Source: Lentisphaerae bacterium ADurb.Bin082 (GTDB lineage Bacteria; Verrucomicrobiota; Lentisphaeria; Oligosphaerales; Oligosphaeraceae). From it: a stretch of DNA of 64,000 nucleotides. The notes under the pieces were generated by a model. The model did no database searches. It was not told the origin of the DNA and was given only the letters and a program-made list of their open reading frames with translations. This document shows positions 33,948-56,200 of the stretch, one piece after another (the first letter of the stretch is position 1; each line of letters begins with the position of its first letter). Location of the stretch: NCBI GenBank assembly GCA_002070945.1, contig MWEG01000023.1, positions 62,001 to 126,000 of the forward strand, given 5' to 3'. A program made the position numbers and the translations under genes.

Positions 33948-33960
33948 ATTACGTTTAACA

Positions 33961-34664: not shown

Positions 34665-34941
34665 GCTGCCGGGCTTCATCCAGCCATATTCCATTGCACT
34701 GTGCCATCTTAACCCACCTTCTCCCTCCCCCCTTGGTGCCATCTGCGCGACATGTTCTCTTTCGCGTCCAGGCGTCCTGGCTATTGTTCACAAACCTATT
34801 TGTTCTCTCAAAACCTCCCAGTTTTGCCCAACAATTGTCACTCGTCGCGCAACTTTCATCCTGGCTGCGCGGTCATAAAAACATATTCATTATACCATCA
34901 CACCCACGACCTACCATTGTTGATTCAAGGTAAAAACCACA

Positions 34942-35991: not shown

Positions 35992-35996
35992 CGACC

Positions 35997-37190: not shown

Positions 37191-37477
37191 AAATGCGCTT
37201 TTGACATTATATTCCTTAAGCTGAATTACCCGCCCACAACCTATTTCAAAACTACCGAATACCTAGGGTGGACTATCCGCCCACAGCCTATTTTTTAACC
37301 ACGGATGGACACAGATGAACACTGATTTTTTGTAGGGTTGTTGTCTTGACGAATGAGATTGTCAGCAGACGTGCGATCTGGCCTGTTGGTTTCTTTAGCT
37401 GTCCTGTCTGGCGACTCGGACAGGGTGGGGATCAGGTAGCCTCCCGTTTGGCCCGAATGACCTGAGAGCCACCCCAA
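37191..37477. repeat. Intergenic stretch with ACCACGGATGGACACAGATG element
   Basis: Bases 37297-37330 read TTAACCACGGATGGACACAG, ATGAACACTGATT and a T-run. This is one copy of a repeat type seen in many environmental bacterial genomes and built like the ATCCGCAG element found elsewhere in the window. No gene was found in this stretch; bases 37331-37477 show nothing further. Confidence 0.7.
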
Positions 37478-37619
37478 CCTCGTAGAGGTGGCACCATGAG
37501 TAACCCCAGGTGAAGCGGAGCGGAACCTGGGGTGGAGTCCCCCCCCAAGCCTGAGCCTCGGAGAGGCGGCACTAGGAATAACCCCGGGTGAAGCGAAGCG
37601 GAACCCGGGGTGGAGTGAG
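37478..37619 (+). repeat. Inner inverted repeat, left arm
   Basis: The arm contains two tandem units of CCTCGTAGAGGTGGCACC (second unit CCTCGGAGAGGCGGCACT), GTAACCCCAGGTGAAGCG and GGAACCTGGGGTGGAGT. Each unit holds two palindromes (CCTCGTAGAGG; ACCCCAGGT...ACCTGGGGT). The reverse complement recurs at 42926-43065. The two arms closely flank the first giant gene. Confidence 0.88.
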
Positions 37620-37694
37620 GGTGAGATGGAACATAATTGGGAGTCCTCCTGTATAAGGGCGACACATAAAGCCTGAACCAAGGATAGCCTGACA

Positions 37695-37824
37695 TACAGC
37701 AAGCTGAAGCTTGAACTACGTACGGCAAGCTAAAGCTTGAACTACGTACGGCAAGCTGAAGCTTGAACTACGTACGGCAAGCTGAAGCTTGAACTACATA
37801 CAGCAAGCTAAAGCTTGAACTACA
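37695..37824. repeat. Five tandem 26-base palindromic units
   Basis: Units of TACGGCAAGCTGAAGCTT plus GAACTACG are repeated five times with only G/A changes. Each contains the inverted repeat CAAGCT-NA-AGCTTG, and unit junctions often form TACGTA. A partial sixth unit follows to about 37840. There are no unique spacers, so this is not a CRISPR array. Related single words occur at 25489, 33985 and 47055. Confidence 0.9.
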
Positions 37825-37987
37825 TACGACAGCTTGAAGGCAGTCCTGCCAGTGTTCATCACCACTTTTTGCCCATTAACCATTTCACACATTAATAAGG
37901 AAGAACGCTATTCTTCCAATTCGAGAAAACACTGTACAGCCAAAGCAAACTTCACCATAGCGATCTCACCACCGCGGGAGGGACCAG

Positions 37988-40900
37988 ATGCGCCAATTGT
38001 TTCCTTGCAAAAAAATACAAGCAGGTATCGCTGCTTTGTTTTTTGTTTTTTTCACTGCAGCCAGCCTGCCTGCCCAAAATGGCGAAGGAATATGGACAGG
38101 ATGGTTCATCGGTGTTGCACAAGTGAATAATGTCAAACTAAGGGCAATAGAAACCAAGCGCCCACTGCTGGCTGTGGTCGGGTCGGGTCCTTGCGCACAT
38201 TGCAACTCTTTATATCACCAGGTACTACTTACCGACACATTTAGAGCGTTTGCGGAGCAACACCAAATCGTCCTTTTTTCATGCCACAACTCCGCCTCCC
38301 TGCCCATTATCTTCAAGCGTCTTTACGGTGCCCAATGCAACATAACGTCTGTTTTTCCACATGTCTATATATTCGAGATCCTGGAAGGGGCGGACACGAC
38401 AACGCCAAATGCCAGCGCCTTTGATGACCCAGCTTATGTCCACTTGCTGGACGCTGGCGCATCCAAGCCTAACCGATACAGCGGCTTTAACTACACACCA
38501 GGCGAAAGAATAAACAATATACAAATTGAGGGGGAGGAAGACAAATGGACGCCCGAAACGTTTATCCAGATCTTCAAGTCCTTTTTCCCGAACGCTAACG
38601 GAGTAGAACTCGTGCCGGGCCCCACCCACACCGGCTACGAAAATGCCATTGACTTCGGGAGAATACCCAATACAGCCAACCCGCCGCCCAGCGCCGAAGA
38701 GTGGATAAAGAACTCAGGTCCAAATCGCCTCACCCCGACAGCGACGCAGAACTGGTTCAAATTCCAAGGCGACTTGGGCAAACGCTATGTGTTTTCCGCC
38801 ACGGGCATCGGGAACAGCAACCCCGGGGCGGAGGTCACCTTCGAGCTGTTCGGCAGCGAGCTGAAAGTTAACGAGTGGGTGCCGCTCAAAAATGCGCACC
38901 AAGCTATCACGTCGCCAGGCTTCGACGCCCTGGAACGCGGCATCCAAGTCGATATGCCGGCTGGCACGGCAACCAACCAGACCTACTTCGTCAGGATCAG
39001 CACCACCAAAAGCATCAATGCAACCTACACCCTAAGAATACACGAGGCACCACGTGCGCCTGCGGCCGGCTCGGTCACCAATCCGCATTGGAACGACGCC
39101 AAGCCTGGGCAGTGGACCATGAACCGCGGCGCCGCCGAAGCCGCAGCCAAAGCCAACGACAAGCCTATCCTCTACTTGTTCGGCGGCTTGCTGTGGAACT
39201 CGGAAACCGTCTGCATGGTTCACAAAGTTTTGGAAACGGAAAACTTCGCGAAGGTGATCGGCAATCAAGCCAACGTCGACAACAAAGCCTACTTGGTCGT
39301 CCTGGACAACCGCGAGCGCGACGGCACAGGGCCGTCCCTCCCCAGAGCCGATCTGGACGACAACATCGAGGTGCAGGATGCCTTGGCCTTGCCAGGCGCC
39401 GGGGGAAAAATCGACTATCCGACGCTGGTCTATCGCGTCCGAAAAGCAAATGACCTGGTCTCTGTCGGACGGATTTCCAAAGACTACAACGCCGCCACCG
39501 TCGTCGCCAAGCTGAACGACCTGAAAGCCATGGCGGCGGACGGCTTTGTCGAGGACAACAACTATGCCGACCTGACCACCCAAGTGCTGGAAGACGGCGT
39601 CCAGGAACACTCCCGCATTGGCGGCAGCCTGATCACAGCTGACTGGTGGCGATTCACCGTCCCCGATGATGATAACACGTTCGCGACAATCACCGCGACC
39701 GGCGCCCCAGACGGCGCCATAATCAACCTGGCCGTCTATGCCGCGGACAATACGGAGACGCCCCTCAAGACAGCCACCGGCACAGCGGGCAAATCAGTCA
39801 GCCTCGACTTTGTGCCAGCCGAGAACCCAGGGGGCACTAGGAACCCGACGGCTCCAGAATATCTCCTGCAAGTCACTTCGACCGGCGCCAACGCCAGCTT
39901 CCCATACACTCTGAAGCTTGAGGAAAAAACCAAGTCCTACGTGCTGGCCATGGCCGACAAGGAAATTAAGGTTTCCAAACAAAATGTCATGGATGGCCGC
40001 CCGGTCGACCTCCGCCTGAACATTGATACTTTTACCGGCAATAATGATGATATCACGTTCAACTGCCGCCTGCTCTCCCAAGACGGCACGGTCTTGAGAT
40101 TGCTGCCAATCACTATCCCTCATGGCGACAAGGCAACCCCATACACCTTCAACATCACTTTGCCTAAGAACATCGAGTACCCCAATGGCGCAATCACAGA
40201 ATTAACCGCCGAACTCATCGAATCGGATGAAGATGGCAACTGCCAGATCGACCCGAAACAGTACAGGACGACCATCAACGTATACGGCTATGCCACGTTC
40301 GATTATCCTCAAGAGGCTACGATTGATCTCTACAAAAATGTAGCGATCACCCCGGGAACGCTCTGCTTCCCGATTATCGGCGGTGCAGCGGATGAGAACT
40401 CGTTAGCCTATAATCCAACCGGTGTCCCCCTAGGCCTGAAAGTAGAGTACAAAACCAACGACGAAAATAATCCGTACGTTGAAATCACCGGTACACCAGA
40501 GAATGAGGCCAAACACGAATACAAACTTCGGTTGATCCTGATACAATCATCGATGCAATACACCGACCTGACTTTTAACATTGAAGATTTGCCCCAGGTC
40601 AAAAATACCTTTGCCGGCTACCTCGTCAAAAGTGCCCCCGTGAACCAGCAACCTGGCAGTACCAGGAACGACGTCATCGCCGCTGCCCAGGACATTCTCG
40701 GTGATATCAAGATAGACAACGAGTTGGACAAAATCAATAAAAAAATCCTGGTTCGCGTCGCCACCCAGGACACCATAGCCCCCAGCTTATTTAAGTTCAC
40801 TGCCTGGTCAAGCTACTCCCCTGGCTCCCCAGGCAAGCAGGGCTCGGTTACATTAACAGGTAAAGCCATTTATGATGATTCCACCCTGGAGTTGCAGGTC

Positions 40901-42619
40901 TGCCTCGACGACGGAACCTGCACCGGGACCTACACGTTGCCCCTGGGCAATTCCTTGGCCATCCATGCCAAGGCCGTTACCGAAGAACCCGAGCAGTACG
41001 CAGGCTACTACACGGTCGCCTTGCGGGAAGCGGATACCACCACTCGCTCCCTCCGAGGCTGGCTGCAAGTCTGGGTGGACGACGACGGCCTCGCCACCTA
41101 CTCGGGCGAACTGATTGACGGCACCGCATTTGGCCCCAAGACGACGTATATCACACCCGGCGAACTCCTCTTTGGCCACCAGAGCGACGTGCCTAATGGC
41201 GAGTTGACCTTCTTCCTGCCGCTTGGAGAGTGGACGGAACAAAACCCGTACCCCGGCCGCCTGGCTGGCCGACTCTCCATCGTCTCGTTAGCGGAACGCC
41301 AACAACAACCAATCGTTTTCCCCTGGATTTCCGTCTGCGACGACGATTATTATTCGGTCTGGGAGAAATCTGCTAACGACTCTATCCTTCTTGCCCCTTG
41401 CGGAACCGTCTTTGAGTCGACGCTCCCGGTTGCCGAGCAAGTCAATCCACCCAACCCGCCAAACTTCTACATTAAGGTTGAGCCTGCTCCGCCAGAGACA
41501 TCATTCCCGCCGGGAACCGCCCTGCCCAACTATGTCAAGCTGAAGGAAAACCGCGATGCATCCACGATGGAAGTCGTCGATGAAGGTGGCATCATTTCCG
41601 CCGAACTTGATAATTTGGAGTACGACGCCGGCCAAGGAACGTTCATCGGCGCCATCAAGGTCCTGAAAACAGCCGACGGCAGCGCCAACGGGAAACTCAC
41701 ACGAACCCCATGCACCATCCGCGGCATCCTGACGCCGAACACGAGCTGCTGCACTGTTGATACTCTCGAAGTCGGCTACGGCTACTTCATCGACGATGGC
41801 ACGACCTATCTGGTCACCATCCTCAATCCGTCCTACGATGAACAACGTCCGAAAAAAACAGCTGCACCGACCATTAGCGCATTTACCCCAGGCGGTACGC
41901 GCGCTGCTGCGCCGGACCAGGCTTGTTACATCAGTGATTCGGACGACAACACGGTTCAGCTCGGCGTTCCCCGCAATGCGCAAATCTTCCGCCGACAAGT
42001 CGGCACCCAAGAGATATTTTTGCATACCGCTGCTGCTGGCGCCAATGAACTCACCATTGATTCGATTCCAGCTTCGCGGCAGGAATTCACGGCTCAAGAG
42101 GCCGGAAAGGCAGAAAGCGACAAGGCCATCCTCCGCCTCTACCGGCAAAACGAGTCCCTGGTCACTTTCAAGAAGCCGGGAGACGACCCGGAGGAGAACC
42201 CCTTAGCGGAAGTCGTGCAGTTGCACTTAGGCTGGAATCTCATCGGCATACCGCAAAATTTCCGTCACAACAACGCAGGGGTTGCCGCAGCCAGCTTCGA
42301 CGCCCCTGCCAATGTCGACTTGTTCACCACATACGACCCGGATAAAACCGCCTATATACTTGCAAAAATATTAACCGCTGGCAATGCCTACTGGATATTC
42401 GTCCACAACGACACCGAGAGCTTCCCCCTTCCTGGCGTACTTTTGCTTGAAGAGGATTACAACAAGAAGTCCCCGGGCGACAACGCCTGGCAATTCATCG
42501 TCGCCCCTGGTGAGGCTCAAGGCACGCGCTGGTTCTGGGAGGACGGGAAGTTCAGCACCGACCCGCCGGAACAGCCGACTTGGCGAGGCGTGTGGTATTA
42601 TTACCAAAAACAACCGTAG
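37988..42619 (+). CDS. Giant exported thioredoxin-like / PPC-domain protein, paralogue A (1543 aa)
   Basis: A signal peptide (IAALFFVFFTAASLPAQ) is followed by a thioredoxin-like domain with CAHC at residues 69-72. The conserved GASKPNRYSGFNY lies near 165. A PPC-like beta-sandwich follows (NWFKFQGDLGKRYVFSATG, residues 250-355). A second thioredoxin-like domain near 385-520 reads KPILYLFGGLLWNSETVC: the CxxC of the paralogue (WCPHC) is lost here. A second PPC-like domain (DWWRFTVPDDD, about 555-660), a series of Ig- or cadherin-like beta domains (NIEDLPQVKNTFAGYL near 870) and the C-terminal LGWNLIGIPQNF module complete it. The start follows GGGAGGG. No catalytic hydrolase site is seen. Probably cell-surface or periplasmic. 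The inverted repeats on both sides are unusual. Confidence 0.82.
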   Translation: MRQLFPCKKIQAGIAALFFVFFTAASLPAQNGEGIWTGWFIGVAQVNNVKLRAIETKRPLLAVVGSGPCAHCNSLYHQVLLTDTFRAFAEQHQIVLFSCHNSASLPIIFKRLYGAQCNITSVFPHVYIFEILEGADTTTPNASAFDDPAYVHLLDAGASKPNRYSGFNYTPGERINNIQIEGEEDKWTPETFIQIFKSFFPNANGVELVPGPTHTGYENAIDFGRIPNTANPPPSAEEWIKNSGPNRLTPTATQNWFKFQGDLGKRYVFSATGIGNSNPGAEVTFELFGSELKVNEWVPLKNAHQAITSPGFDALERGIQVDMPAGTATNQTYFVRISTTKSINATYTLRIHEAPRAPAAGSVTNPHWNDAKPGQWTMNRGAAEAAAKANDKPILYLFGGLLWNSETVCMVHKVLETENFAKVIGNQANVDNKAYLVVLDNRERDGTGPSLPRADLDDNIEVQDALALPGAGGKIDYPTLVYRVRKANDLVSVGRISKDYNAATVVAKLNDLKAMAADGFVEDNNYADLTTQVLEDGVQEHSRIGGSLITADWWRFTVPDDDNTFATITATGAPDGAIINLAVYAADNTETPLKTATGTAGKSVSLDFVPAENPGGTRNPTAPEYLLQVTSTGANASFPYTLKLEEKTKSYVLAMADKEIKVSKQNVMDGRPVDLRLNIDTFTGNNDDITFNCRLLSQDGTVLRLLPITIPHGDKATPYTFNITLPKNIEYPNGAITELTAELIESDEDGNCQIDPKQYRTTINVYGYATFDYPQEATIDLYKNVAITPGTLCFPIIGGAADENSLAYNPTGVPLGLKVEYKTNDENNPYVEITGTPENEAKHEYKLRLILIQSSMQYTDLTFNIEDLPQVKNTFAGYLVKSAPVNQQPGSTRNDVIAAAQDILGDIKIDNELDKINKKILVRVATQDTIAPSLFKFTAWSSYSPGSPGKQGSVTLTGKAIYDDSTLELQVCLDDGTCTGTYTLPLGNSLAIHAKAVTEEPEQYAGYYTVALREADTTTRSLRGWLQVWVDDDGLATYSGELIDGTAFGPKTTYITPGELLFGHQSDVPNGELTFFLPLGEWTEQNPYPGRLAGRLSIVSLAERQQQPIVFPWISVCDDDYYSVWEKSANDSILLAPCGTVFESTLPVAEQVNPPNPPNFYIKVEPAPPETSFPPGTALPNYVKLKENRDASTMEVVDEGGIISAELDNLEYDAGQGTFIGAIKVLKTADGSANGKLTRTPCTIRGILTPNTSCCTVDTLEVGYGYFIDDGTTYLVTILNPSYDEQRPKKTAAPTISAFTPGGTRAAAPDQACYISDSDDNTVQLGVPRNAQIFRRQVGTQEIFLHTAAAGANELTIDSIPASRQEFTAQEAGKAESDKAILRLYRQNESLVTFKKPGDDPEENPLAEVVQLHLGWNLIGIPQNFRHNNAGVAAASFDAPANVDLFTTYDPDKTAYILAKILTAGNAYWIFVHNDTESFPLPGVLLLEEDYNKKSPGDNAWQFIVAPGEAQGTRWFWEDGKFSTDPPEQPTWRGVWYYYQKQP

Positions 42620-42925
42620 CTGTAAAAGTGCGAAAACCTGTGGTTGAAAGAGAGACTTGACCTAGTACTATCCGCCAAAATCTTGTTTTTTGCGAAAGAT
42701 TTTCTCCAAGTCAGTACTTATGTGTCGCCCTTTCAGGGCTCCCAATATTATTATACGCCTCACCCAGGGCGTAGCTCGCCCTTGGCGGGCTCGCTTGCCC
42801 TGGGCTGGTATGTCTCGCCCTTTCAGGGCATTTGCAGCTCTGCAGCTGCGGACGTTGTACTACTATCGGCCAACTTCTTGTTTTTTGGGAAAGATTTTTC
42901 AGGGAAACTTATCGCCAAGCCGCTA
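42620..42925. repeat. Palindromic repeat mosaic, part 2
   Basis: No gene is seen. Two inverted copies of the GATAGTAGTAC element (42664-42704 and 42857-42900) surround TATGTGTCGCCCTTTCAGGG, CACCCAGGGCGTAGC and a GCCCTGGGC palindrome (42728-42830). Part of it matches 34098-34290. Confidence 0.8.
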
Positions 42926-43065
42926 CTCACTCCACCCCAGGTTCCGCTTCGCTTCACCTGGGGTTACTCATGGTGCCGCCTCTACGAGGCTCAGGCTTGG
43001 GGGGACTCCACCCCAGGTTCCGCTTCGCTTCACCTGGGGTTACTCATGGTGCCGCCTCTACGAGG
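42926..43065 (-). repeat. Inner inverted repeat, right arm
   Basis: The reverse complement matches 37478-37619 closely (only a few differences by eye). It has two units of ACTCCACCCCAGGTTCC, GCTTCGCTTCACCTGGGG, TTACTCATGGTGCCGCC and CCTCTACGAGG. It starts 306 bases after the first giant gene ends. Confidence 0.88.
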
Positions 43066-43343
43066 CTAGGGGCGGCCTTCCGGCCGCCAGTACGACGCAC
43101 ATCAGCCGCCGTCCACAACGTCCACCCAGTCCACCACGTCCACAACAGCCGCAAAGCGGCAAAAGCCCGGAGGGTGACACATAAAAGCCCAGGGTAAGCC
43201 GGGCCGCCAGGCCCGGCGCAGCCCTGGGTGAGGTGGCATATCATTTTGAGTCCTGAAAGGGCAACACATAAACGCCGCTGTGGTCAAAGGACACATAAAG
43301 GCATACAAGTATTCATCACGAAACTTAGCACATTAACTTTTTC
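43066..43343. repeat. Palindromic repeat mosaic, part 3
   Basis: No gene is seen. Bases 43111-43147 carry five GTCCAC-type words (GTCCACAACGTCCACCCAG and so on). Bases 43188-43230 form a palindromic block, AGCCCAGGGTAAGCC ... GCAGCCCTGGG. Bases 43232-43270 hold GGCATATCATTTTGAGTCC and CTGAAAGGGCAACACATAAA. The last block recurs at 43760-43802. Confidence 0.75.
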
Positions 43344-43540
43344 GGGGAAAATTTCTGGAAAGCAAATACTCAAGTCATTGGTATACAATAAGTAACAATA
43401 ACTATAAACAAAATTCCGACAACATGTTTTCAGCGCTAACAGTAGTGCCCCTACGGGGCACCAGTTTGGGGGGCATACCTCCCCCAGGCTAAAGCCTGGG
43501 GTTAAGCATGGTTAAGCGCCTACGGCGCAAAGGAATATGA
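43344..43540 (-). repeat. Outer inverted repeat, right arm
   Basis: This is the reverse complement of the arm at 34381-34575, with about 20 mismatches over roughly 180 bases counted by eye. Hairpins CCCCAGGCTAAAGCCTGGGG and GTGCCCCTACGGGGCAC are shared. A shorter third copy of the central hairpins occurs at 52918-52983. Confidence 0.88.
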
Positions 43541-43885
43541 CGTTAAGCATGGTGCCTCTGCACCGGCTGGAAGCCTGTGGAAGCCTGTGCAAGACACGCA
43601 TCTTCGCGCCTGAACTTTAATAAGTCAATAGTCTTTACTGTATAGCCTGTGCAAGACACGTGTCTTCACGCCAACGTCCACTAACATCCGCAGCTACAGA
43701 GCTGCCAAAGCCCCAACGGGGCGCGACATACCCGCCCAGGGCGAGCGACGCCCTGGGTGAGATGGCATATCATTTTGAGCCCTGAAAGGGCGACACATAA
43801 ACGTTGACTTGCAGAAAATCTTCCCCTCAAAAACAAGAAGTTAATCGATAGCAGTACCATAACCATAACTTAAGGAACCACTACG
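43541..43885. repeat. Palindromic repeat mosaic, part 4
   Basis: No gene is seen. Two GTGCAAGACACG words (43585 and 43647), a CGCCCAGGGCGAGCGACGCC palindrome with CCTGGGTGAGATGGCATATC (43733-43775), CCCTGAAAGGGCGACACATA (43780-43800) and a direct copy of the GATAGCAGTAC element (43814-43857). The DUF1573 gene starts directly after it. Confidence 0.75.
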
Positions 43886-45112
43886 ATGCCTCCTGCCATG
43901 TCGCGCTTGCTGACCAGTCTTATCGCTTTGCCTCTGCTGGTTGCCGTTGTCTTAGCCCAGGACAAACCGCTGGCGCCGCCTGCGGGCGCCCAAGACCTTG
44001 CCGAGCAACAGGAGCAAGCCGCCCAAGAGCCGACGGAAGAGCCGGATTCCACCAAAAAACCGCCTTTGCAGCTGCTGGACAACGCTGCCGAAGTCAACCT
44101 CGGTACGCTGATGGATCGGGAACGCCGCCAGTTCACGGTAAAATTGCGCCATGCTGGCGACAAGCCGCTGGCGATTAGCTTAGTCCGCAGCACTTGTCCT
44201 TGCCTTGAAATCGTCAATGCCCCTCAGCCATTCACCCTGGCGCCTGGTGCTGAGATGACGATAGAGGCCATTCTCAAGGCCAATACCCTGCCGGTGAAGC
44301 CGTTCGCTCGCCTGATACTGGTCAATGTCGCGGATTACGATCCCTATTTCATCAAAGTCGTCGGCGACATTGCCAAAAACGTCAGTTTTGCTCCTGCTCC
44401 GGTGATTCAGCTGGGCAGCTTCGTTGGCCTGAAGACATCCTGGACCCGCACCATCACCTTGAAGTTCGACTTTCCCGAGGGCAAGCAGATTGTGCTGGAG
44501 CAGCCTGCGGAAAACAAGCTTCTCACCTTGGCCGTATCGTCTCCCGAACCCAACACCTTTGTAGTCGCGGCCACGCCTAAGCTGCCTCTGCCGGCCGGCA
44601 AGCTGGATGAAGTCATCACCCTGCCTACGCGGGGCGTTGACGGCTATGGCTCGGTTCAGATCGCGTTCCGCGGCACGGTCACCGGCTGGGACTTGGCCGT
44701 CGTGGAACGCATCATCACCATTGACACGGCCCAAATCGAACCAGGCAAAGGCGCTGCCGCTGAACTGACCATCGTCCCACGCAGCGAAGCGCCGCCAGCC
44801 CGCAGGCTCGCACGGCGCTTTAAAGGCGGCCATAGCCATGCCCAAAACGACGACCGAGTGGCGGAAAAACACGTCGAAAACGACGAACAAGCGGCCGGAG
44901 AGCTGAAAAGAAAAGAAACGTGGCAAGACATCGCCAAGGCCATCACGGTAAACATCCCTGAAGGCAGCACCATGGACATCGTCCCGGAAGACACCTGCAT
45001 CAAACTGCGCCTGAGCTTTCCAGAACAGTTCTTCGCACAACGAAACAGGTATTCGGCCAGCGTCATGCACAACAAGAAAATCATCGGACGCCTGAATATC
45101 GTCGCCAAATGA
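43886..45112 (+). CDS. Exported DUF1573-domain protein (408 aa)
   Basis: Residues 1-24 look like a signal peptide (LLTSLIALPLLVAVVLA). After a Gln/Glu/Pro linker, residues 58-160 are a DUF1573 Ig-like domain: NLGTLMDRERRQFTVKLRHAGDKPLAISLVRSTCPCLEIV, where CPC is the family's conserved Cys region, then FTLAPGAEMTIEAIL. A second beta domain follows (residues 165-300) and a charged His/Asp/Glu stretch (residues 310-345). The last part has NIPEGSTMDIVPEDTC. DUF1573 proteins are exported and often sit near thioredoxin-like or CcdA genes; here the CcdA-like gene starts 209 bases downstream. AAGGA lies upstream of the start. The exact job is unknown. Confidence 0.82.
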   Translation: MPPAMSRLLTSLIALPLLVAVVLAQDKPLAPPAGAQDLAEQQEQAAQEPTEEPDSTKKPPLQLLDNAAEVNLGTLMDRERRQFTVKLRHAGDKPLAISLVRSTCPCLEIVNAPQPFTLAPGAEMTIEAILKANTLPVKPFARLILVNVADYDPYFIKVVGDIAKNVSFAPAPVIQLGSFVGLKTSWTRTITLKFDFPEGKQIVLEQPAENKLLTLAVSSPEPNTFVVAATPKLPLPAGKLDEVITLPTRGVDGYGSVQIAFRGTVTGWDLAVVERIITIDTAQIEPGKGAAAELTIVPRSEAPPARRLARRFKGGHSHAQNDDRVAEKHVENDEQAAGELKRKETWQDIAKAITVNIPEGSTMDIVPEDTCIKLRLSFPEQFFAQRNRYSASVMHNKKIIGRLNIVAK

Positions 45113-45134
45113 AGCCCGCCCAGGCGGCGAGGAG

Positions 45135-45282
45135 CTGCTGTTTTATCCGCAGATGACGCTGATGACGCAGATTTTTTTTGGGGGGGCTGAATGCTGAATG
45201 CTGAATGCTGAATGCTGAAGCGCATTTCATAATTCATCATTCATCATTCATCATTCATAATTCGTTAGGAGTCCGGGGCGAC
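45135..45282. repeat. Compound: ATCCGCAG element joined to a heptamer composite
   Basis: Bases 45135-45180 are an ATCCGCAGATGACGC element (third copy), preceded by GGCGAGGAGCTG. It runs straight into the third TGAATGC composite: about four TGAATGC heptamers at 45187-45219, GCGCATTTC, then six ATTCATA/ATTCATC heptamers to 45265, closing in CGTTAGGAG. The join shows that the two families can sit end to end. Confidence 0.88.
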
Positions 45283-45320
45283 ATTCCGTCCGTGGTTCTT
45301 TTTCTGTAAATTCTCTAATT

Positions 45321-46910
45321 ATGCTACGTTCATTGACAAAACTTCTCCTTTGCCTTGTTTTGGTCTTTTTTTCTCTTTCCGGCTTTTCTGGCCTGGCGGC
45401 TGAGCGCAGCTGGGTGGCTATATTTGGCACGGCTGATTGCGACGACTGCGCGGCGGTCAAACGCCAATGGCGCGAGGAACTCACCGCGCCGGAAGACCCG
45501 GTGCTCCTTTTCCTGGACATCGCGCATCCGCCCAACTATCGGCGCCTGGAACAGATCGAAGCCGCCTTGAAAATTCCGGCCAAGGGCGCGTCGTTTCCCA
45601 TCTTCTTGGTCGGCAACCGGCTGATTGACAACATCGACGCTTTCTATGAGCTGGGAGACGAACTGTTCGAGCTGGCCGCTGCCCAGCCGTCAGACCCAGC
45701 GGTTCAGGCAGTCACCAAGCCGCTGGCCACGGCTGCCGCGACGGCCAGCACCCCGGTCGTTGACCTGCTCTGCCCAGAGGAAGCTTCCCCGCCAACAGCG
45801 ACAACTGCGACGACGACCATAGCCACCCCGCGCCTCCTCTATTTCTTCCAGAAAAACTGCCAGAAATGCTCGCGCCAGGAAAAAGAGCTGGAGCTTCTCT
45901 TAGCCGATTTGCCGGGATTGACGATAGACCGTTTTGACGTTGCCACGCTCGATGGCCTGGCCATTCTGCGCCGCGCCATGAATCATTTCCTGCTTCCCGC
46001 TGACAGCACCCGCAATTTAGCGCCGATGGTCTGCTGGCAGGATGGCTTCATCACCGGTCGACTGGCCGATGCCGCTGAACTCAAAAAAGCCCTGGCGCAC
46101 TACCGCGAACCCTACGAGACCTTCTGGCAAGCGCCTGTCACCGACACGGAACGACAGGCCGAAAAGACCCGCCAGCAACGACGCCTAGGCAAGGGCGCCA
46201 TCGGACTCATCATCAGCGCTGGCCTCCTCGACGGCTTCAACCCCTGCGCCTTTGCCACCTCCATCTTCCTGCTCAGCTACCTGCTGTACCTGAAACGCCG
46301 TCCACGCGACATCGCCCTGGTCGGGGCATTCTTCTGCCTGGGCGTCTTCCTGACCTACGTCCTGTTCGGCATTGGCCTGTCCTTCCTCATCGATGCCCTC
46401 AACCAGGCCGCCTGGATGAAAACCATCATCTATGGCGGGCTGGGAATCGTCGGCGTCATCCTCGCCATCGGCCACCTGCGCGATGCGCTGCGCTACCGGC
46501 GCACCGGAAAAGCAGGCGACATGGCTTTAGGACTGGACAAGCAAACCCACCAGCGCATCCACACTTGGATCAAGCGCCTGACCGACCATAAATCCTGGCT
46601 GATGATACCGGCTGCCCTGCTGCTCGGCGCGATCGTCTCCAGCATGGAGCTGGCCTGCACCGGTCAAATCTACCTGCCTACCCTCGCCGCCATCAATGCT
46701 GACGGCATCGACCTCCGCGCCGTGCTGCTGTTGCTGCTCTACAATTTCTTCTTCATTCTGCCGCTGGCCGTCATCACAACCTTGGCGGTGCTGGGCGTAG
46801 GCGCACAGCCAGTCGCGGCCTGGGCGCGCAAGAACGTCGTTGCCACTAAAGTCGCCATGGCGGTCTTATTTGCCTGCCTGGCTGTGCTGATGTTCTCGCT
46901 GATCGGATAG
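45321..46910 (+). CDS. CcdA/DsbD-like membrane reductant transporter with two thioredoxin-like domains
   Basis: The 529-residue protein carries a signal segment (LLLCLVLVFFSLSGFSGLAA). A first redox domain has FGTADCDDCAAV (CxxC at 40-43) and a second has FFQKNCQKCSRQEKELELLL (CxxC near 181). About six membrane helices follow from residue 290. The CcdA landmark LLDGFNPCAFATSIFLLSYLL and the second Cys in SSMELACTGQIYLPTL are both present, so the electron-transfer cysteines are intact. CcdA/DsbD proteins pass electrons from cytoplasmic thioredoxin across the membrane. The two N-terminal domains are the probable exported acceptors. Fusion order (two domains before the transporter) is unusual. 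It is downstream of DUF1573 and between the two giant genes. Confidence 0.88.
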   Translation: MLRSLTKLLLCLVLVFFSLSGFSGLAAERSWVAIFGTADCDDCAAVKRQWREELTAPEDPVLLFLDIAHPPNYRRLEQIEAALKIPAKGASFPIFLVGNRLIDNIDAFYELGDELFELAAAQPSDPAVQAVTKPLATAAATASTPVVDLLCPEEASPPTATTATTTIATPRLLYFFQKNCQKCSRQEKELELLLADLPGLTIDRFDVATLDGLAILRRAMNHFLLPADSTRNLAPMVCWQDGFITGRLADAAELKKALAHYREPYETFWQAPVTDTERQAEKTRQQRRLGKGAIGLIISAGLLDGFNPCAFATSIFLLSYLLYLKRRPRDIALVGAFFCLGVFLTYVLFGIGLSFLIDALNQAAWMKTIIYGGLGIVGVILAIGHLRDALRYRRTGKAGDMALGLDKQTHQRIHTWIKRLTDHKSWLMIPAALLLGAIVSSMELACTGQIYLPTLAAINADGIDLRAVLLLLLYNFFFILPLAVITTLAVLGVGAQPVAAWARKNVVATKVAMAVLFACLAVLMFSLIG

Positions 46911-47364
46911 AACTCCCACGGGGCTTGGCGACGGGATAATTCAGCGCTTCTGCTGCTGCTCCGCTGCTGTGGACATGGTGAGCGGGGTGAGCGGGGTGGA
47001 CGGGGTGAGCGGGGTGGGCGGGGTGAACGTGGTGGACAGAGGCTGCGGCATCGTACGTAGTTCAGCTTCAGCTTGCCGTAATTTTAGCGTTTCTGCCGCT
47101 GCGCTGCTGGCTTCCCCGTACAACTCACCCTAAAAAAATCTGCGTCATCTGCGTCATCTGCGGATAAAACAACAGCCTTCGCTTCTTGCCCTCATTTCGC
47201 CGCTTTTCCATGCAACCAGCGCAAAGTTCGTGACTCTGTATGCAACACAATGATAGTGAGCTTGTTACAGATATTTTTCCTTTGCTCTTCCGTCTGTTTG
47301 CGCTATATTTTACGTATTGTTTGTCTGTAGTTTTTGAATTCACGTGTTGCACGGCAGGCGGTCT
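46911..47364. repeat. Intergenic stretch with GGGGTGAGC tandem and inverted ATCCGCAG element
   Basis: Bases 46969-47041 hold about eight 9-base units such as GGGGTGAGC and GGGGTGGAC. A GTACGTAGTTCAGCTTCAGC word lies at 47053-47080. Bases 47105-47178 are the fourth ATCCGCAG element in the inverse direction. Bases 47180-47364 show nothing clear. Confidence 0.8.
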
Positions 47365-48081
47365 ATGGAAGCTGGCCTCGGCTCAGAGTATGGATGCAGT
47401 TATTATTTGCTTCGCAGCGCGGCGTTGGCAACGGTCCTTCATTTAGGCACGTTGTCATTTTGCCAGCGTTTTATGCCGCCTTCGGACGCTGCTCGGTCTC
47501 GGTCTTTGACGTCATCGGCCCGGCAGGCTTGGCAATCCGTGCTGGAGGTCATCCAGCGCCAGCTGTCTGATGCTGACGCCGAAGTTATGTGCCTCGCTGC
47601 CGGCTATCGCCAGATGACTTTGCTGCTTGGCGAGTGGGAGATGTTTCTTATTGACGGCGGCGCGCTGCCGTGGAGCTGCCAGTCGGCCGGCTACATGCGG
47701 CTGGCCTCATCGACGTATGCGCCTGTCTGCGACGACGGCGAATTGCCTGAGCAGGTTTGTTGGCGCTACGTGCAGGTTTTGCGCAGTCGCCTGGCCTTTT
47801 GGCTGGATAACGAAGATCGGCTTGAAGTCGCCAATGCCTTGCTGGTGCTGACTAAGCAGGGGCTGGCCGCGCTGGCCACGGAATTGGCCGGCTATCGTCA
47901 ACGTCACGTCGGCGCCGCCTTGACCGTGGTGGAGGACTGGTTGGAGACGAGTCGTGGCGAATGGCTGCGGGTCGCCTGCGTCGTGCCTCCGTGTCCAGCC
48001 TGCGGCAAGCCTATGCGGCGTTATTGGGAGCAATGGCAGTGCCAGGACTTCCCTGATTGCATCGGAATCGCCAAGGGGTGA
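47365..48081 (+). CDS. Four-helix-bundle protein with topoisomerase-type zinc ribbon (238 aa)
   Basis: The N-terminal 150 residues follow the pattern of the four-helix-bundle family related to 23S rRNA intervening-sequence proteins. YYLLRSAALATVLHLGTLSFCQRF, SSARQAWQSVLEVIQRQLSDADAEV, LLLGEWEMFLIDGGALPW and ANALLVLTKQGLAALATELA align by eye with its successive helices. The C-terminal CPACGKPMRRYWEQWQCQDFPDC is a four-Cys zinc ribbon of the topoisomerase type. The combination suggests nucleic-acid binding in the cytoplasm. I prefer the ATG at 47365 (MEAGLGSEYG) because the first helix then stays whole. The gene is convergent with the second giant gene. Function is not established. Confidence 0.68.
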   Translation: MEAGLGSEYGCSYYLLRSAALATVLHLGTLSFCQRFMPPSDAARSRSLTSSARQAWQSVLEVIQRQLSDADAEVMCLAAGYRQMTLLLGEWEMFLIDGGALPWSCQSAGYMRLASSTYAPVCDDGELPEQVCWRYVQVLRSRLAFWLDNEDRLEVANALLVLTKQGLAALATELAGYRQRHVGAALTVVEDWLETSRGEWLRVACVVPPCPACGKPMRRYWEQWQCQDFPDCIGIAKG

Positions 48082-48136
48082 CACCCGCTGCGGTTGCTGG
48101 CGCATTCAGCGCTAATCGTGGCGGCTGAAAGCAGTT

Positions 48137-51100
48137 TTATTTATAAAACCACACGCCTTGCCAAGCCGGCTGCTCCGGTGGTTCGATGGTAAACCGCCCA
48201 TTCACCCAGAACCAGTGTGCGCCTTGAGCCTCATCCCCGGGGTCGGCAATGAATTGCCAGGCATCGTCGACCAGAGACTCCTTGGCGTAGTCCTCTTCAA
48301 GCAAAAGCACGCCTGGGAGGGTGAAGTTCTCCGTGTCGTTGCCAACGTACATCCAGTAGGCTTTGCCGGCGGTTAGTGTTTCCGCAGTTATATAGGCGGC
48401 TTTATCCTGGTCGTATGTGAACAAGGCGACGCCAGCAGAGACGTTGAGGGCGGCTATGGCAATCTCTCTGCTGACATCATGCCCAGTGCGGAAATTTTGC
48501 GGTATGCCGATGAGATTCCAGCCTCGGCGCAACCGCGCCAAGCCCTCGTCGGGGGCGCCTTCCGGAAGAAACTTGAAAGTGACCAGGGAGTCATTTTGCC
48601 GATAGAGGCGGAGGGTGGCCTTGTCGCTCTCGGCCTTGCCGTCCTCTATGGCCGTGAATTCATGCCTCAAGGCTGGAAGCGAATCAAGGATGAGTACATC
48701 GGCGCCTGCCGCGGAATGCAAAAATATCTCTCCAGTGGCGACTTGCCGGCAGAGGATTTGCGCATTGGGGGGCACCGAGAGCTGAACCGTGTTGTTGTCC
48801 GAATCGCTGATGTAGCAAGTCACGTCCGACGCGATGCGTGTGCCTGCATGGTCGCCATGCGTCCATGCGTCAATGGCCGGCGGGGCTGTTTTTCCCGGCG
48901 CCTGGTTGAAGATGGTGACGAGACAGGTCGCGCCATCGAGGGTGAAATAGCCGTGACCATCCGCGAGATTCGGAGTCTGGCCGCAACAATTCTTGGTGAT
49001 CGGAGTCAGGATGCCGCGGATGGGACATTCGGTTCGTGCGAGTTCACCGTTGGCGCTGCCATCGGCTGTCTTCAGGACATTGATGCGCCCGGTGAACGTT
49101 CCTTGGTATGCGTCATACGTCAAAGCACTCAGTTCGGCGGATAGGATGCCGTTGGTGGCGACGAGCAGCGCCAATGCATCGCGGTTTTCTTCCAGCTTGA
49201 CACAGTTGGGCAGGACGCTTCCCGGCGCAAATGCCGTCTCTGGCGGAGTGGGCTGAACGCTGATATAGAAGTATGGCTGTTCGAAGTCTGGATCGACTTG
49301 CTCGGTAACCGAGCGTGTCGAGTCAAAAGTCGTCCCGCAGGGGTCAATCAGAACCAGGTCGTCAGCTGCTTTTTCCCAGGCCGAATTGCCGCCACTGGCT
49401 AACACCCAGGCGTCATTGACGTTGTCGCCAGCGGTTGCTTCGCGTTCCGCCTTCGCGACGATGGCGAGCTGGCCGGCCAAGCGGCCGATATAGCTGTTTT
49501 GTTCCGCTGACCACCCAAGCGGCAGGAAGAAGGCCATTTCGCCATCAGGCATGCCGCTCTTGTTGCTGGCGGTGATTTTTCCGGGGGTGACATACGTGTC
49601 CTTGGGGCCGAATGTGGCGCCGTCAATCAGTTCGCCCTGGTAGGTGACGCATCCGGCATCATCCACCCAGACTTGCAGCCAGCCCTGGCAGGAATATGTG
49701 CCGTTATCCAGCCAATGCCGCAAAGCAACCGTGTAGTAGCCTGCGTACTGCCCCGGAACTTTGGTGACGGCCGAGGCGCGGATGGCAAAGGAATTGCCCA
49801 AGGGGGACGTATAGGCGCCAGTGCAGGTGCCGTCCTGGCTGATCTGCAAGCTCAAGGCGGAACCATCCTGGGTAGTGCTTGCTAATCCTATCAAGTTAAG
49901 CGCGCCAAGGTCAGGGGAGTAGCTTGACCAGGCAGCGAACTCAAAAAAGCTGGGGGCTTCGGCGTCCTGGGTGGCGACGCGAACCAAGATTATACCGGTC
50001 AGGCCATCCAAGTCGTTGTCTATCTTGATGTCGCCGCGCATGGCCTGGGCAGCGGTGACGTCGTTATCTTCGACGAGATAGCCGGCAAAGGCATTGCTGA
50101 CCTGGGGCAAATCCTCAATATTAAAAGTCAGGTCGATGTATTGCTGCGATTGCAACAGGACCAACAGGAGTTTGTATTGAGCATTGGCTTCGCCCTCTGG
50201 CGTGCCAATGATTTCAACGCACGGACTATCTGGGTCGCTAGTAAAATCCCGCAGTTCTAGGCCTAGCGGGATGCCGTCTGGATTATAGTCTATCGGTTCC
50301 CCTTCCGGGTCGCCAATGACCGGGAAGGAGAGCGACCCCGGGGCGAGCGCGATATTTCTGTAAAGGGTGAATGTGGCCTCGGCAGGATAATTGAACGCGG
50401 CATAGCCAAGCACGTTGACGGTCGTGGTGGATTGCTCCGGGTCGATCTGGCAGCTGTTGTCACCCGATTCGGTGATTTCGGCGACTAATTCTGTGCTTTC
50501 GCCGTCGGGGTACGTACCGTCTGGCAATGCCATGCTGAAGGTATATGGGGTTGCCTTGTCGTCGTGAGCAATAGTCATTTCCCGCCATGGTGCGCCAGTG
50601 TCGCCTGCGCGCCGCAGGCGGCATTTGAACGTGAGCGGCTTCGCATGGGCGTTGACAGTCTCAATGTTCAGGCGGAGCTTGACTTCAGCGGCTTTGCTGG
50701 AAACGCGACTTTCCTGGTCTGCCATGGCCAGCACGTAGGACTTGGCAGTGACTTCAAGCTCCAGTTCGTATAGGAAGCTGGCGGTGGTGTCGCTCGCGGT
50801 GACTTGCAGGAGATATTCCGTGTCCTCCGCGTTTCCGGCTGGCGCAAAGACGAGGCGGACGGGGTCGGTCGCAGGGCTGGTGGCTGTCTTGAGGAGCGTC
50901 ACGCCGTCTGCGGCATAGACAGCCAGGCTGATTGCGGCGCCAGCCGGGGCAGCGACCCCGGTCGCAGTGATGGTCGCAGCCTTGCCTGCCGGGACGGTAA
51001 ATCGCCACCAGTCAGCCGTGATCAGGCGGCCGCCAATGCGGGAGTTTTGCAGGTCGCCGTCCTTCAGCATTTGGGTGGTCAGGTCGGCACAGTTGTTGTC

Positions 51101-52744
51101 TTCGACAAAGCCGGCTGCCGCCATGAGCGCCAAGTCGTCCAGCTTAGCGATGACCGAGGCGATGTCATAGTCTCCGGCAATCCGTCCGACCGAGGTTAGT
51201 CCATTGAGCGTTGCGCGGGTAGGCGCTGCTGCCGGGACGCAGTAGACCAGCGTCGGATAGCCGATTTTCTTCCAGGCTTTGTCTGGCCCCCAGGTGTCGG
51301 CGCCAGGCAAGGCCAAGGCATCCTGTGCCGCGATGTTGTCAACCAGCTTGGCCTCGGCGGCTACAACGCTGATGTTATTCGTTTTCAAGTAGCCATTGGC
51401 TGTGTTGTCGCGGAGCGGGGATGGGCCGTTGCCGTAGCGGTCGCGGTTGTCGAGGGCGACTAAATAGGCGTCTGCGGTCGCCGCCTTGAATTCAGGCGCT
51501 TGCAGTATCTTGTGCTCTAGGCAGACGCAGTGCGGGCACCACAGCAGGCCGCTGAACAAATAGATGACAGGCTTGCCAGCGGCTTTGGCCGCTTCCTCGG
51601 CGGCGGCGCGGTCCATAGTCCACTTTCCGGGCCTGGCGCCGTTCCAATGCGGGTTGGTAGGCGTGCCGGCAGCAGGGGCCCGCTGAGCCTCGTGCGCCTT
51701 CAAGGTGTATGTCATCTTACTGACGTCGCCAGCGGCATGGCTGAGCCTGACGAAGTAGGTCTTATTGGTTGCCGTGCCAATCGGCATGTCGATTTGGACA
51801 CCGCGGTCCAAGGCGTCAAAGCCTAGGGCGGTGATTGTCTTGTACGCATCCTCAAGCGGCGCAAGCAGGCCGTTGTTCCACTCGCTGCCGAACAGCTCAA
51901 ACGTAATTTCCACCTCGGGATTGTTGTTCGTGATGTCCTTGGCCGAAAACACATAGCGCTTGCCCAGGTCGCCGACGAATTTGAACCAGTTCTGCGCCGC
52001 TGCCGAGTCCAGGACCTTTGCACCTGAATACATGATCCATTCTTTGCTGTTGGGCTGCGGGTTGTCCATGTTGGGTATTCGTCCGAAGTCATGGGCGTTT
52101 TCAAAGCCGGTGTGGGTGGGAACGGGCGGTGGAGTAGTATTTGCCCAGAACTGATTCGGGAAAAAGGTCTGGAAGACGCTGATAAACGTTTCCGGCGTCC
52201 AGGCGAGTTCAGTCTCAATTTGGACATGGTTTATCTTTATATTAGACAAGTAGTTGAAGCCGCTGTATCGGTTGGGCTTGGATGCGCCAGCGTCCAGCAA
52301 GGTGACTTGCTTGTCATGAAGCGACGTGGAATCTGAAGTGGCCAAGTCTGCGCCGTCATTGACCTTGAAAATGTAAATAAATGGGTATGAGGGAGTCATG
52401 CCGCATTTCTTTGAATAAAGGTTGTGCAGTGCCCCATTAAGCTCTTTTGAATCGCGGCATTCAAAAACAACGATTTTGTTGGCATCGACGTAGTTCTGAA
52501 ATGCCGGCGTATGCAGAACAAGATTTTCAAATTTGTTGCAATGATCGCAATCCGCGCCGCCGGCTATGACCAGCAAGGGCCGATTGTAGCTGTATGCGAG
52601 CCTTTTGGCGTCCGCTACCTGCGCAATGCCGGTGAACCATCCTTCCCATGCTACTTGCGCAGGCAGACTGGACGCGAGCAAGCAAACAAAGGCCAAAACT
52701 GCGGCGCGCACAAGAAAATTTCGGGCATGAGCAGATAGAAGCAT
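48137..52744 (-). CDS. Giant exported thioredoxin-like / PPC-domain protein, paralogue B (1535 aa)
   Basis: This is a full-length paralogue of the gene at 37988, on the opposite strand, with the same domain order. A signal peptide (VLAFVCLLASSLPAQ), then a thioredoxin-like domain with CDHC at residues 66-69. GASKPNRYSGFNYL and a PPC-like domain (NWFKFVGDLGKRYVFSAKD) follow. The second thioredoxin-like domain has GLLWCPHCVCLEHK, with its CxxC kept, unlike paralogue A. A second PPC-like domain (DWWRFTVPAGK), Ig/cadherin-like domains (NIEDLPQVSNAFAGYL) and a C-terminal GWNLIGIPQNF module complete it. The start follows GGAG. This copy may be the catalytically competent one for its second domain. 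No protease or glycosidase site was seen. Confidence 0.83.
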   Translation of the reverse strand: MLLSAHARNFLVRAAVLAFVCLLASSLPAQVAWEGWFTGIAQVADAKRLAYSYNRPLLVIAGGADCDHCNKFENLVLHTPAFQNYVDANKIVVFECRDSKELNGALHNLYSKKCGMTPSYPFIYIFKVNDGADLATSDSTSLHDKQVTLLDAGASKPNRYSGFNYLSNIKINHVQIETELAWTPETFISVFQTFFPNQFWANTTPPPVPTHTGFENAHDFGRIPNMDNPQPNSKEWIMYSGAKVLDSAAAQNWFKFVGDLGKRYVFSAKDITNNNPEVEITFELFGSEWNNGLLAPLEDAYKTITALGFDALDRGVQIDMPIGTATNKTYFVRLSHAAGDVSKMTYTLKAHEAQRAPAAGTPTNPHWNGARPGKWTMDRAAAEEAAKAAGKPVIYLFSGLLWCPHCVCLEHKILQAPEFKAATADAYLVALDNRDRYGNGPSPLRDNTANGYLKTNNISVVAAEAKLVDNIAAQDALALPGADTWGPDKAWKKIGYPTLVYCVPAAAPTRATLNGLTSVGRIAGDYDIASVIAKLDDLALMAAAGFVEDNNCADLTTQMLKDGDLQNSRIGGRLITADWWRFTVPAGKAATITATGVAAPAGAAISLAVYAADGVTLLKTATSPATDPVRLVFAPAGNAEDTEYLLQVTASDTTASFLYELELEVTAKSYVLAMADQESRVSSKAAEVKLRLNIETVNAHAKPLTFKCRLRRAGDTGAPWREMTIAHDDKATPYTFSMALPDGTYPDGESTELVAEITESGDNSCQIDPEQSTTTVNVLGYAAFNYPAEATFTLYRNIALAPGSLSFPVIGDPEGEPIDYNPDGIPLGLELRDFTSDPDSPCVEIIGTPEGEANAQYKLLLVLLQSQQYIDLTFNIEDLPQVSNAFAGYLVEDNDVTAAQAMRGDIKIDNDLDGLTGIILVRVATQDAEAPSFFEFAAWSSYSPDLGALNLIGLASTTQDGSALSLQISQDGTCTGAYTSPLGNSFAIRASAVTKVPGQYAGYYTVALRHWLDNGTYSCQGWLQVWVDDAGCVTYQGELIDGATFGPKDTYVTPGKITASNKSGMPDGEMAFFLPLGWSAEQNSYIGRLAGQLAIVAKAEREATAGDNVNDAWVLASGGNSAWEKAADDLVLIDPCGTTFDSTRSVTEQVDPDFEQPYFYISVQPTPPETAFAPGSVLPNCVKLEENRDALALLVATNGILSAELSALTYDAYQGTFTGRINVLKTADGSANGELARTECPIRGILTPITKNCCGQTPNLADGHGYFTLDGATCLVTIFNQAPGKTAPPAIDAWTHGDHAGTRIASDVTCYISDSDNNTVQLSVPPNAQILCRQVATGEIFLHSAAGADVLILDSLPALRHEFTAIEDGKAESDKATLRLYRQNDSLVTFKFLPEGAPDEGLARLRRGWNLIGIPQNFRTGHDVSREIAIAALNVSAGVALFTYDQDKAAYITAETLTAGKAYWMYVGNDTENFTLPGVLLLEEDYAKESLVDDAWQFIADPGDEAQGAHWFWVNGRFTIEPPEQPAWQGVWFYK

Positions 52745-53292: not shown

Positions 53293-56200
53293 TCAACCTC
53301 GTTTTTGGAGGAATTCCTGGAATCTGGCGAATGATTCTCCTTGTTCGCGGACAGCGTCCAACAGGGGAATAAGAGCTTCCAGGATCAGAATCTGGCGTTC
53401 CCAGGCTTTGGCGTATTCTGGCGGCATGATTGCTTTGAGTTCAGTCGGGGCTTCCGTGTTGTCCTTCTTGGCGCTTTGCATTGCCTGCGCTAAAGACGCC
53501 AAGTCCACGCGCTGATTCTGCAAAGCCTCAGTCAACGGCGCCAGGTCAATCCGCTGGTTCTGCAGAGCCTCGGTCAACGGCGCCAGGTCAATCCGCTGGT
53601 TCTGCAAGGCTTCGGCTAACGGCGCCAGGTCAATCCGCTGGTTCTGCAAAGCAGCCACCAGCGGCGTCAAGTCGATTTTCACATTGCCCTCGTCCCGCGC
53701 CTTAGGTTGGCGCGTAGCCAGGACTTCGCCTAGGCGGTCTGCGGCCTGGGCAAAGCCGCTGTCCAACGAACTGCGCACCTGCCCCAGGCCAGCGCTGAAC
53801 GCCGACAATTGCGCTAGGAGCCGTCCGAAATCATTAGCGTCATCCAGGCCGGAGAGATTCTTCCGCCTCGTGAATTCGGCCTTGATGTCATCCCAGCGGA
53901 GTTTTTCTGCGGGCGTCAGGCACTGCATGATTTCCTTGGCCTTGAGCAGGTTGCTTTCCGCGCCGGTGGTCAGGGTCTGGGCCTCATTGCGGTAATGGTC
54001 AAGGATGACCTGGTCGACTTCCTGCTCGCTCATGATTGGGAATATCTTTTCCGCCATGCGGTTCATGTTGCGGTAGGAGCCTTGCAGTCGGAACGGCGGT
54101 TCGGTGCGGTACTCGTCTTGCTGCGCCGCTGAATAAATATACTGCTGGTTGACCTTGAGCACGATATCCCGCACCCGGAGCAAATGCCTGACCGTCTTGA
54201 CGACGTCATCAAGCTCGCCCGGGGCATAAAATTCCACGAAGGACACGCCCTCGATGCTGCCGCGCTCGGCGGCCAGTGCGAAGTTGGCCATGTCCGCCAG
54301 GTTGCCGCCCTGGTTGTTCCAGGCCGCCAGAACCGAATTGGACGTCATGGCGTTTTCCAGGAAACTAAGCGCAAAGACCTCGGCATGAGCCTGGCTGATG
54401 TCGCCAAGATTATAGGTGTCAGCGCGGTTCGCCAGCATATCTGGCACCTTGAACACGCCGCCGCTTTCCGTATAGGGATTGCCGGCCATGACGACCGCGA
54501 CCTTCTTGCCGCGCAAATCGTACGTCCTGGCCTGGCCATCCATAACGCCCTCGATCTTGCGCTGGGCGTCACACAGAGAAATGAACTTCTGCAAGAATTC
54601 CGGATTCAGGTGCTGGATATCGTCGAGGTAGATCATCACATTGTTGCCCATGGCAAAGGCGAGGTTCAATTTATGCAATTCTTCACGGGCAGTCGCATTC
54701 GGCGCTTCGGCCGGGTCCAGGGACAGGACGCGGTGGCCGATAGCCGGGCCATTGACTTTCATGAAGGCCAGGCCCAGGCGTTCGGCCACATATTCCATCA
54801 GGGTAGTCTTGCCATAGCCTGGCGGCGAAATAAGCAGCAGAAGCCCCATTTGGTCGCTGCGCCGACGCGGCCCGGCAGCGCCCATCTGCTTAGCGAAATT
54901 GGCTCCGATAAAACGCAGATAGACCTCGCTGAGCAAGCGGTTGCGGACAAAGCCTCCCATGGTGTGCGCCTTGAACTCTGACAAACGCAGGCGCAGGCGG
55001 CGCGCTTCCAGGAGTTTGCCACGAAGGCGCTGGTAGTCGCGGAAGCGGGGCGCCTGCCGGGAACGGAAGTCCTCCAGGCGCAGCAGGAAGGTGTCGAGCT
55101 GCAACGTCAGCTTTCCCTCCTGCAACAGCGGGTGCACCCCGCGCAAGCCGCTGACCGTAGAGCTGACTGCGGCTGACATGCCGTCAGCCAGCAGCATCTT
55201 CGGGCCGGCGCTGGCCAGGGTCGTCATCTCCCAGGCGAAATGACGGTCAGCAGCCTTGTCCCGGTGTTCCAGGAACGCCGTCACCCAGTCGTAGGCCAAG
55301 GCAATGCGCGCACCTGGCGACGACAGCGACGACAACGCCTGCTCAAAGCGCTTTTCCGCATTGCGCTCCCGCAGGACGCGGCGGAATTCTTCGGCCAGGG
55401 CGACTGCCTCCGCCGTCATGGTGAACCGCAGCTCCTCCTGGTCCTGGAGTTCATAAAAAAGATATTCGGCTGCCTGGTCAAGAGCCGCCGCCGGGAACGG
55501 CAGCCGAGCCAGCTCCGAAAACTCGGCCAGCAGCTTTTTCAGGTCTGCGACATAGACCGGATGGATTTCCTGCTGCTGGAACATAGCGGCTCTCTCGCCA
55601 AAGCTTCGCAGGTGTTCACGCCAGGCGTTTTTTCGGTCAGTGTCAGGATGGAAGCACCAGCACAGCACGGCCCAGGAGCGTCCTGCGCTGGCATAGCGCA
55701 GCAGCCCGCAGCGGTCGTGCAAAACGATCAGCTCGCGCAGAATCAGCGCGGCGTCATAGTCATGGACACCGCGTTCGTAGCCCTCGTCGTAGCGTTGCGC
55801 TGCTTCGACGCGCATCAGTTCAACCAGCTCTCCCAGTGTACCGGCGTCTGTCGTGCGCTGGCTTGGCGCTGCCAGCTGCCGCAAGCTGTCCAGGGTCAAG
55901 CCGCGTTCGCCATGCTGGGCGCGGCGGAAGATATCGTAGGCGAGGAATTCGGCGCGATAGACGTCTGGCGCTTCGCTCGGGAGCGTCCTGGTCCACATAT
56001 CTTGGCAGGCGGCCAGCTCCGCGTCGCGCACCGGCTCGCTGAAGTCCGTACCTGTCAAATGCAGGCAGAGTTCGCCTTCGCGCACGATTGTGGTCAATTC
56101 CAGGGGCTGCTTGTTGACATGGAATTGGTGTTCGCCCAAGGTCACGGCTGAACCGTCAGGCGTGAAGATATCTTGCCGGTCGCGTTGTTGCCGCAGCAGG

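Follow-up and report, generated by a model that had tools for sequence, protein, structure and literature searches.

A duplicated giant thioredoxin-domain protein as the probable centre of an envelope thiol-disulfide pathway in Oligosphaeraceae

Giant exported proteins compared with described thiol-disulfide systems

What is known of disulfide chemistry in the bacterial envelope comes mostly from Proteobacteria, whose Dsb proteins are small, and membrane proteins such as DsbD, CcdA and ScsB act as electron suppliers. In eukaryotic protein disulfide isomerases (PDIs), several thioredoxin (Trx) domains are joined in one exported chain and only some of them carry a CxxC motif. Chlamydial DsbH (2ju5; NF043050), a single small exported Trx domain of the Thioredoxin_7 type with a CxxC motif, has been suggested to contribute to maintaining a reducing periplasm (PMC5193440).

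The window, by which we mean the whole stretch of DNA that was analysed (64,000 nucleotides of contig MWEG01000023.1 from Lentisphaerae bacterium ADurb.Bin082), encodes two giant exported proteins, A and B, which are the only two giant copies in the 5.1 Mb genome:

37988..42619, + strand: giant exported protein A, intact open reading frame of 1543 residues at the ancestral cluster position; Trx1 CxxC kept, Trx2 motif lost
38192..38203, + strand: A, Trx1 active site CAHC (residues 69-72)
39197..39208, + strand: A, degenerate Trx2 site NSET (residues 404-407), aligned to CPHC/CPYC of homologues
41747..41752, + strand: A, invariant CC pair (residues 1254-1255)
48137..52744, - strand: giant exported protein B, intact open reading frame of 1535 residues; CxxC kept in both Trx domains
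52538..52549, - strand: B, Trx1 active site CDHC (residues 66-69)
51527..51538, - strand: B, Trx2 active site CPHC (residues 403-406), DsbH-like by profile
48983..48988, - strand: B, invariant CC pair (residues 1253-1254)

A preliminary description had recognised two large exported paralogues and assigned these CxxC states, and both points hold; the proteins are 55% identical end to end (BLASTP 1505 bits, E = 0), and a signal-peptide-like stretch ending in ..SLPAQ, read by eye at each N terminus, suggests export. The domain order that it gave was also recovered: Trx1 is followed by a jelly-roll/PPC-like domain and Trx2 by another of PPC-like type, and the C-terminal half is all beta, with a GWNLIGIP module at its end; the description had overlooked an additional conserved all-beta stretch at residues ~886-1365, which contains the CC pair. 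GWNLIGIP was rejected as a family-specific signature, the module being found also in a neighbouring 723-residue protein and its relatives. That exported protein (29866..32037) has CHB_HEX_C/Fn3_assoc repeats and a C-terminal GWNLLGMP (at 31690) resembling the module of the giants, and its relatives lie near the gene cluster treated below in several genomes.

An AlphaFold2 model of residues 31-670 of B, built with 23 homologues, reached a mean pLDDT of 90.9 and consisted of two thioredoxin-type domains, both with the thioredoxin beta-alpha order, alternating with two beta-sandwich domains; the thioredoxin folds that had been proposed at both positions are therefore borne out by structure prediction. 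The C-terminal half was predicted to be all beta (pLDDT 82.6). Thioredoxin_7 (PF13899) matched B in two stretches, the best being residues 375-439, and passed its gathering cut-off (E = 1.2e-14; 54.7 bits against 27); the match to A stayed under it (E = 0.003; 18.2 bits). The PPC model (PF04151) matched B weakly, below its gathering cut-off (0.008; 17.4 bits against 25.9), and the PPC fold was matched by Foldseek (5sv5, TM 0.74 of target). PDB sequence and Foldseek searches led to Chlamydia DsbH and to PPC/collagen-binding domains, Trx2 of B giving a profile match to 2ju5 at 1.3e-7. Foldseek matches of the C-terminal half to Ig-rich proteins, complement and macroglobulins, and some matches of the N-terminal half (BcsB, Cry, enterotoxin C domain), were generic beta-sandwich matches (TM <=0.17 of query in each case) and were set aside.

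DsbH is the best match, in sequence and in fold, to the Trx region of the giants, with which it shares an exported Thioredoxin_7-type domain carrying CxxC; in the giants, however, that domain sits in a multidomain chain of ~1540 residues, and their whole-protein scores against NF043050 (B, 30.1 bits; A, 17.2 bits) lie below the curated cut-off of 190. The likeness to eukaryotic PDIs, which is one by analogy alone, consists in several Trx domains, with or without CxxC, in one chain, whereas in the giants beta modules separate the Trx domains and a membrane electron supplier is encoded nearby. The whole architecture is spanned by no Pfam or NCBIfam model, which agrees with the earlier remark that no described family has this design.

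A six-gene cluster with a CcdA/DsbD-like transporter

Giant homologues are present in most Oligosphaeraceae genomes; outside this family, long matches were found only in one genus of one other family within the order, and matches in the remainder of the order were to short generic Trx proteins only. The relatives have 2-5 Trx domains, arranged as one to four tandem Trx1 units followed by Trx2, with CxxC in every tandem Trx1 unit (CSKC x4, CTVC x3, CAHC x2). In the alignment, the Trx1 CxxC is kept in 21 of 21 homologues and the Trx2 CxxC in 20 of 24 rows; the CC pair of the C-terminal half is kept in 22 of 22 homologues (CMDC in two rows).

Loci were collected with an alignment of the CcdA-like protein as query, a contig scan with the giant pair having given no match, and gene order was taken from profile searches of six-frame translations. 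Six genes recur in one order on one strand, encoding a six-cysteine exported protein, a HEAT-like protein, a PpiC prolyl isomerase, the giant, a DUF1573 protein and a CcdA/DsbD-like protein; this order is found in many genera, in Oligosphaeraceae and partly in one other family. In the window the cluster spans 32694..46910, and the genes other than that of giant A are:

32694..33860, + strand: six-cysteine exported protein of ~370 residues, its six cysteines conserved; likely true start 32745; upstream of the cluster in relatives too
34942..35991, + strand: HEAT-repeat-like protein whose N terminus carries a hydrophobic anchor; weak HEAT_2 match, position conserved in relatives
35988..37190, + strand: exported PpiC/parvulin-type prolyl isomerase (PF00639, E 8e-10), directly upstream of the giant gene, a conserved position
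43886..45112, + strand: exported DUF1573 protein with a CPC motif (PF07610, 5e-7)
45321..46910, + strand: CcdA/DsbD-like membrane protein; its N-terminal portion holds two Trx-like domains (CDDC, CQKC), and the cysteines of its membrane part lie in NPC and CTGQ motifs

The cluster is complete in the window and at six further loci (L024, L025, L030, L038, L040 and L042) and partial at contig ends; the cultured species Oligosphaera ethanolica DSM 24202 carries the full module, and the first four genes are present, in order, in a genome of the other family (G042; L183). Two giant genes flank DUF1573 in L035, L040, L041 and L178, L034 and L039 have their six-cysteine and HEAT genes in inverted orientation, and the CcdA-like gene lies upstream in L180; the giant stands alone in L036 and L037, and at these two loci and L034 there is no CcdA-like gene near it. 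No published description of the six-gene module was found in open-licence full text. The interval that separates giant A from the prolyl isomerase gene contains a 26-bp tandem repeat (37695..37828; 5.2 copies, 93%), and a 30-bp stretch downstream of B resembles it.

The transporter resembles DsbD, CcdA and ScsB in having a pair of membrane cysteines at corresponding positions as well as outward-facing Trx-like domains; unlike them, it falls below detection by Pfam DsbD_TM, carries both Trx-like domains N-terminally and is coupled to a giant protein and DUF1573. By hhalign, both membrane cysteines are in register with the two of DsbD, at a low probability (12-14%), and neither DsbD_TM nor DsbD_2 of Pfam gave a match over the cut-off, which a distant relative (L057) passes for DsbD_2. 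The NPC and CTGQ cysteines are kept in 105 of 105 relatives from many phyla. The DUF1573 protein passes the gathering cut-off of PF07610 (30.0 bits against 26.1), and its CxC is present in 13 of 13 cluster orthologues; selenoprotein forms of DUF1573 with a UGC motif have been tabulated (PMC9312934), which suggests a redox-active thiol.

In Lentisphaerae/Verrucomicrobia, single chains of 1474-1554 residues have the order Trx-HEAT-Trx-CcdA-like, with the CcdA-like membrane part C-terminal, and are not covered whole by Pfam:

L091:6479-11101: Trx-HEAT-Trx-CcdA-like fusion
L098:977-5641: Trx-HEAT-Trx-CcdA-like fusion
L102:1881-6437: Trx-HEAT-Trx-CcdA-like fusion
L120:6737-11161: Trx-HEAT-Trx-CcdA-like fusion

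Such chains (L091 and L098, for example) unite functional parts similar to those of the module but are without the PPC, Ig and GWNLIGIP beta modules, and no description of them as a system was found in the papers searched. DUF1573-CcdA-like fusions occur in other phyla, and both kinds of fusion argue that Trx, HEAT, DUF1573 and the transporter cooperate. A thiol-handling role for the giants, which had been suggested at the outset, is strengthened by these neighbours, namely the CcdA/DsbD-like protein, the DUF1573 protein with its invariant CxC and the prolyl isomerase. A canonical DsbD is encoded elsewhere in the genome, so the pathway of the module would not be its sole reductant. Cytochrome c maturation was rejected as a role, being an unlikely purpose since PF01578 (Cytochrom_C_asm) had no match in the genome, which is 91.5% complete.

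Duplication of the giant gene and loss of the Trx2 motif

The pair had been presented as a unit; most relatives, by contrast, have one copy in the conserved cluster, and the pairing is a lineage-specific duplication with inversion, B being the duplicate and lying inside an inverted block beyond the CcdA-like gene. The arrangement in the window fits duplication with inversion of a block made up of B and the gene of a 245-residue protein, since G001 and G002 keep the order CcdA gene (+), 245-residue gene (-), DUF3686-AAA gene (-). The latter two genes are represented in the window as follows:

47344..48081: 245-residue protein with a zinc-finger-like CPAC...C end, 85-91% conserved in two genomes of the same genus, but inverted along with B in the window
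53293..58728: DUF3686/AAA ATPase of 1811 residues, with a 42-bp tandem repeat near the 3' end of its gene (53497..53673)

The tree places A and B as sisters (100/99). Of the two, A changes faster, with 163 against 111 unique residues when G002 is the outgroup (chi-square 9.9) and 173 against 111 when it is G001 (chi-square 13.5), and this faster change is concentrated in Trx1 and partly in Trx2. The overall dN/dS between A and B is below 1 (about 0.6), which indicates that the pair is constrained, though not tightly. An older duplication followed by gene conversion may also have occurred, given that the synonymous distance between A and B is ~1.1 in Trx1 and 0.3-0.7 elsewhere; the tree still makes the two copies sisters.

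The Trx2 CxxC is absent in A, in L035_1618 and in L040_9483, the last being identical to L041_2 across the compared part. These losses fall in three separate tree lineages, each on a long branch, and each of the genomes concerned has a second giant copy in which the CxxC is retained. In G006, and probably in G020, there are two giant copies that both have the Trx2 CxxC; loss in two-copy genomes is frequent, not a rule. That the motif was lost three times independently, on each occasion from one of the two copies in a genome, suggests that the loss in A means something. The earlier reading of the divergence as split roles is possible; relaxed constraint on A, which changes faster mainly in Trx1 and Trx2, could also produce it. 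That A is a decaying copy without function, a reading that bears on the A/B difference only, we regard as unlikely: the lost Trx2 motif and the faster evolution (163 against 111) would fit, but A is full length, evolves with dN/dS below 1 and retains the CxxC of Trx1 as well as the cis-proline region and the CC pair, and two further lineages underwent the loss in open frames that are intact or cut by contig ends.

A candidate pathway and its alternatives

We reasoned that the duplicated protein represented by A and B is probably the hub of a dedicated thiol-disulfide pathway in the cell envelope, with the six-cysteine protein as the most likely main client of this pathway. Neighbourhood and co-occurrence point to this client: within the order it is found in 18 genomes, always as a single copy and always with a giant protein in the same genome (in G021 the giant is a partial match only). 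No Pfam or PDB relative of the six-cysteine protein was found.

In the direction of transfer that we infer, the CcdA/DsbD-like protein would bring in cytoplasmic electrons via its membrane cysteines and pass them to its own outward-facing CDDC and CQKC domains, which would in turn reduce Trx2 of the giant (CPHC/CPYC, DsbH-like) and its expandable Trx1 units. The giant would then act as a PDI-like reductase or isomerase on a beta-domain scaffold, its Trx domains reducing or isomerising the disulfides of the exported client. The prolyl isomerase, the anchored HEAT-like protein and the DUF1573 CxC protein may work alongside the giant, the first and last of these assisting. In the window genome, with its duplicated giant gene, B would contribute both sites and A that of Trx1 only. 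A narrower proposal, which we put forward tentatively, is a one-client disulfide machine of Oligosphaeraceae, in which a PDI-like giant (2-5 Trx units) with a C-terminal vicinal-cysteine relay and its own CcdA-like transporter would mature the six-cysteine protein, and repeated duplication would yield a Trx1-only copy specialised in part of the reaction (e.g. binding, or isomerisation without reductase input).

The pathway might instead serve general envelope disulfide handling, the giant acting on many exported clients and the six-cysteine protein being merely a neighbour. The prolyl isomerase and DUF1573 protein, which are of general folding or redox types, and the DsbH-like character of Trx2 would suit such a role; it is nonetheless unlikely, as the six-cysteine protein is single-copy, confined to giant-bearing genomes and adjoining the cluster.

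CPHC and CPYC motifs resemble oxidising dipeptides, and neither DsbA nor VKOR had a match in the 91.5% complete genome, both of which would suit a giant that forms disulfides as an oxidant in place of those proteins. This we hold to be improbable, given that the giant is nearly always clustered with a CcdA/DsbD-like electron supplier whose cysteines are conserved, and that its nearest solved relative, DsbH, has been suggested to help keep the periplasm reducing (PMC5193440). More improbable still is a surface adhesin or glycan-binding protein with structural Trx domains: beta modules make up more than half of the protein and include PPC/collagen-binding-like folds, but the Trx1 CxxC is invariant over deep divergence and kept in every tandem copy, and the cluster holds redox neighbours.

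The folds and the logic of electron supply are already known; as far as our searches went, the architecture and the module are undescribed, and the architecture, the tandem expansion and the dedicated cluster set the system apart. A module of giant, repeat-expandable Trx proteins with a membrane electron supplier of their own and, probably, a dedicated client would broaden the picture of envelope disulfide chemistry to include anaerobic gut and digester bacteria. The contribution of each site is testable in relatives whose giants range naturally from 2 to 5 Trx domains and in the three parallel losses of one site.
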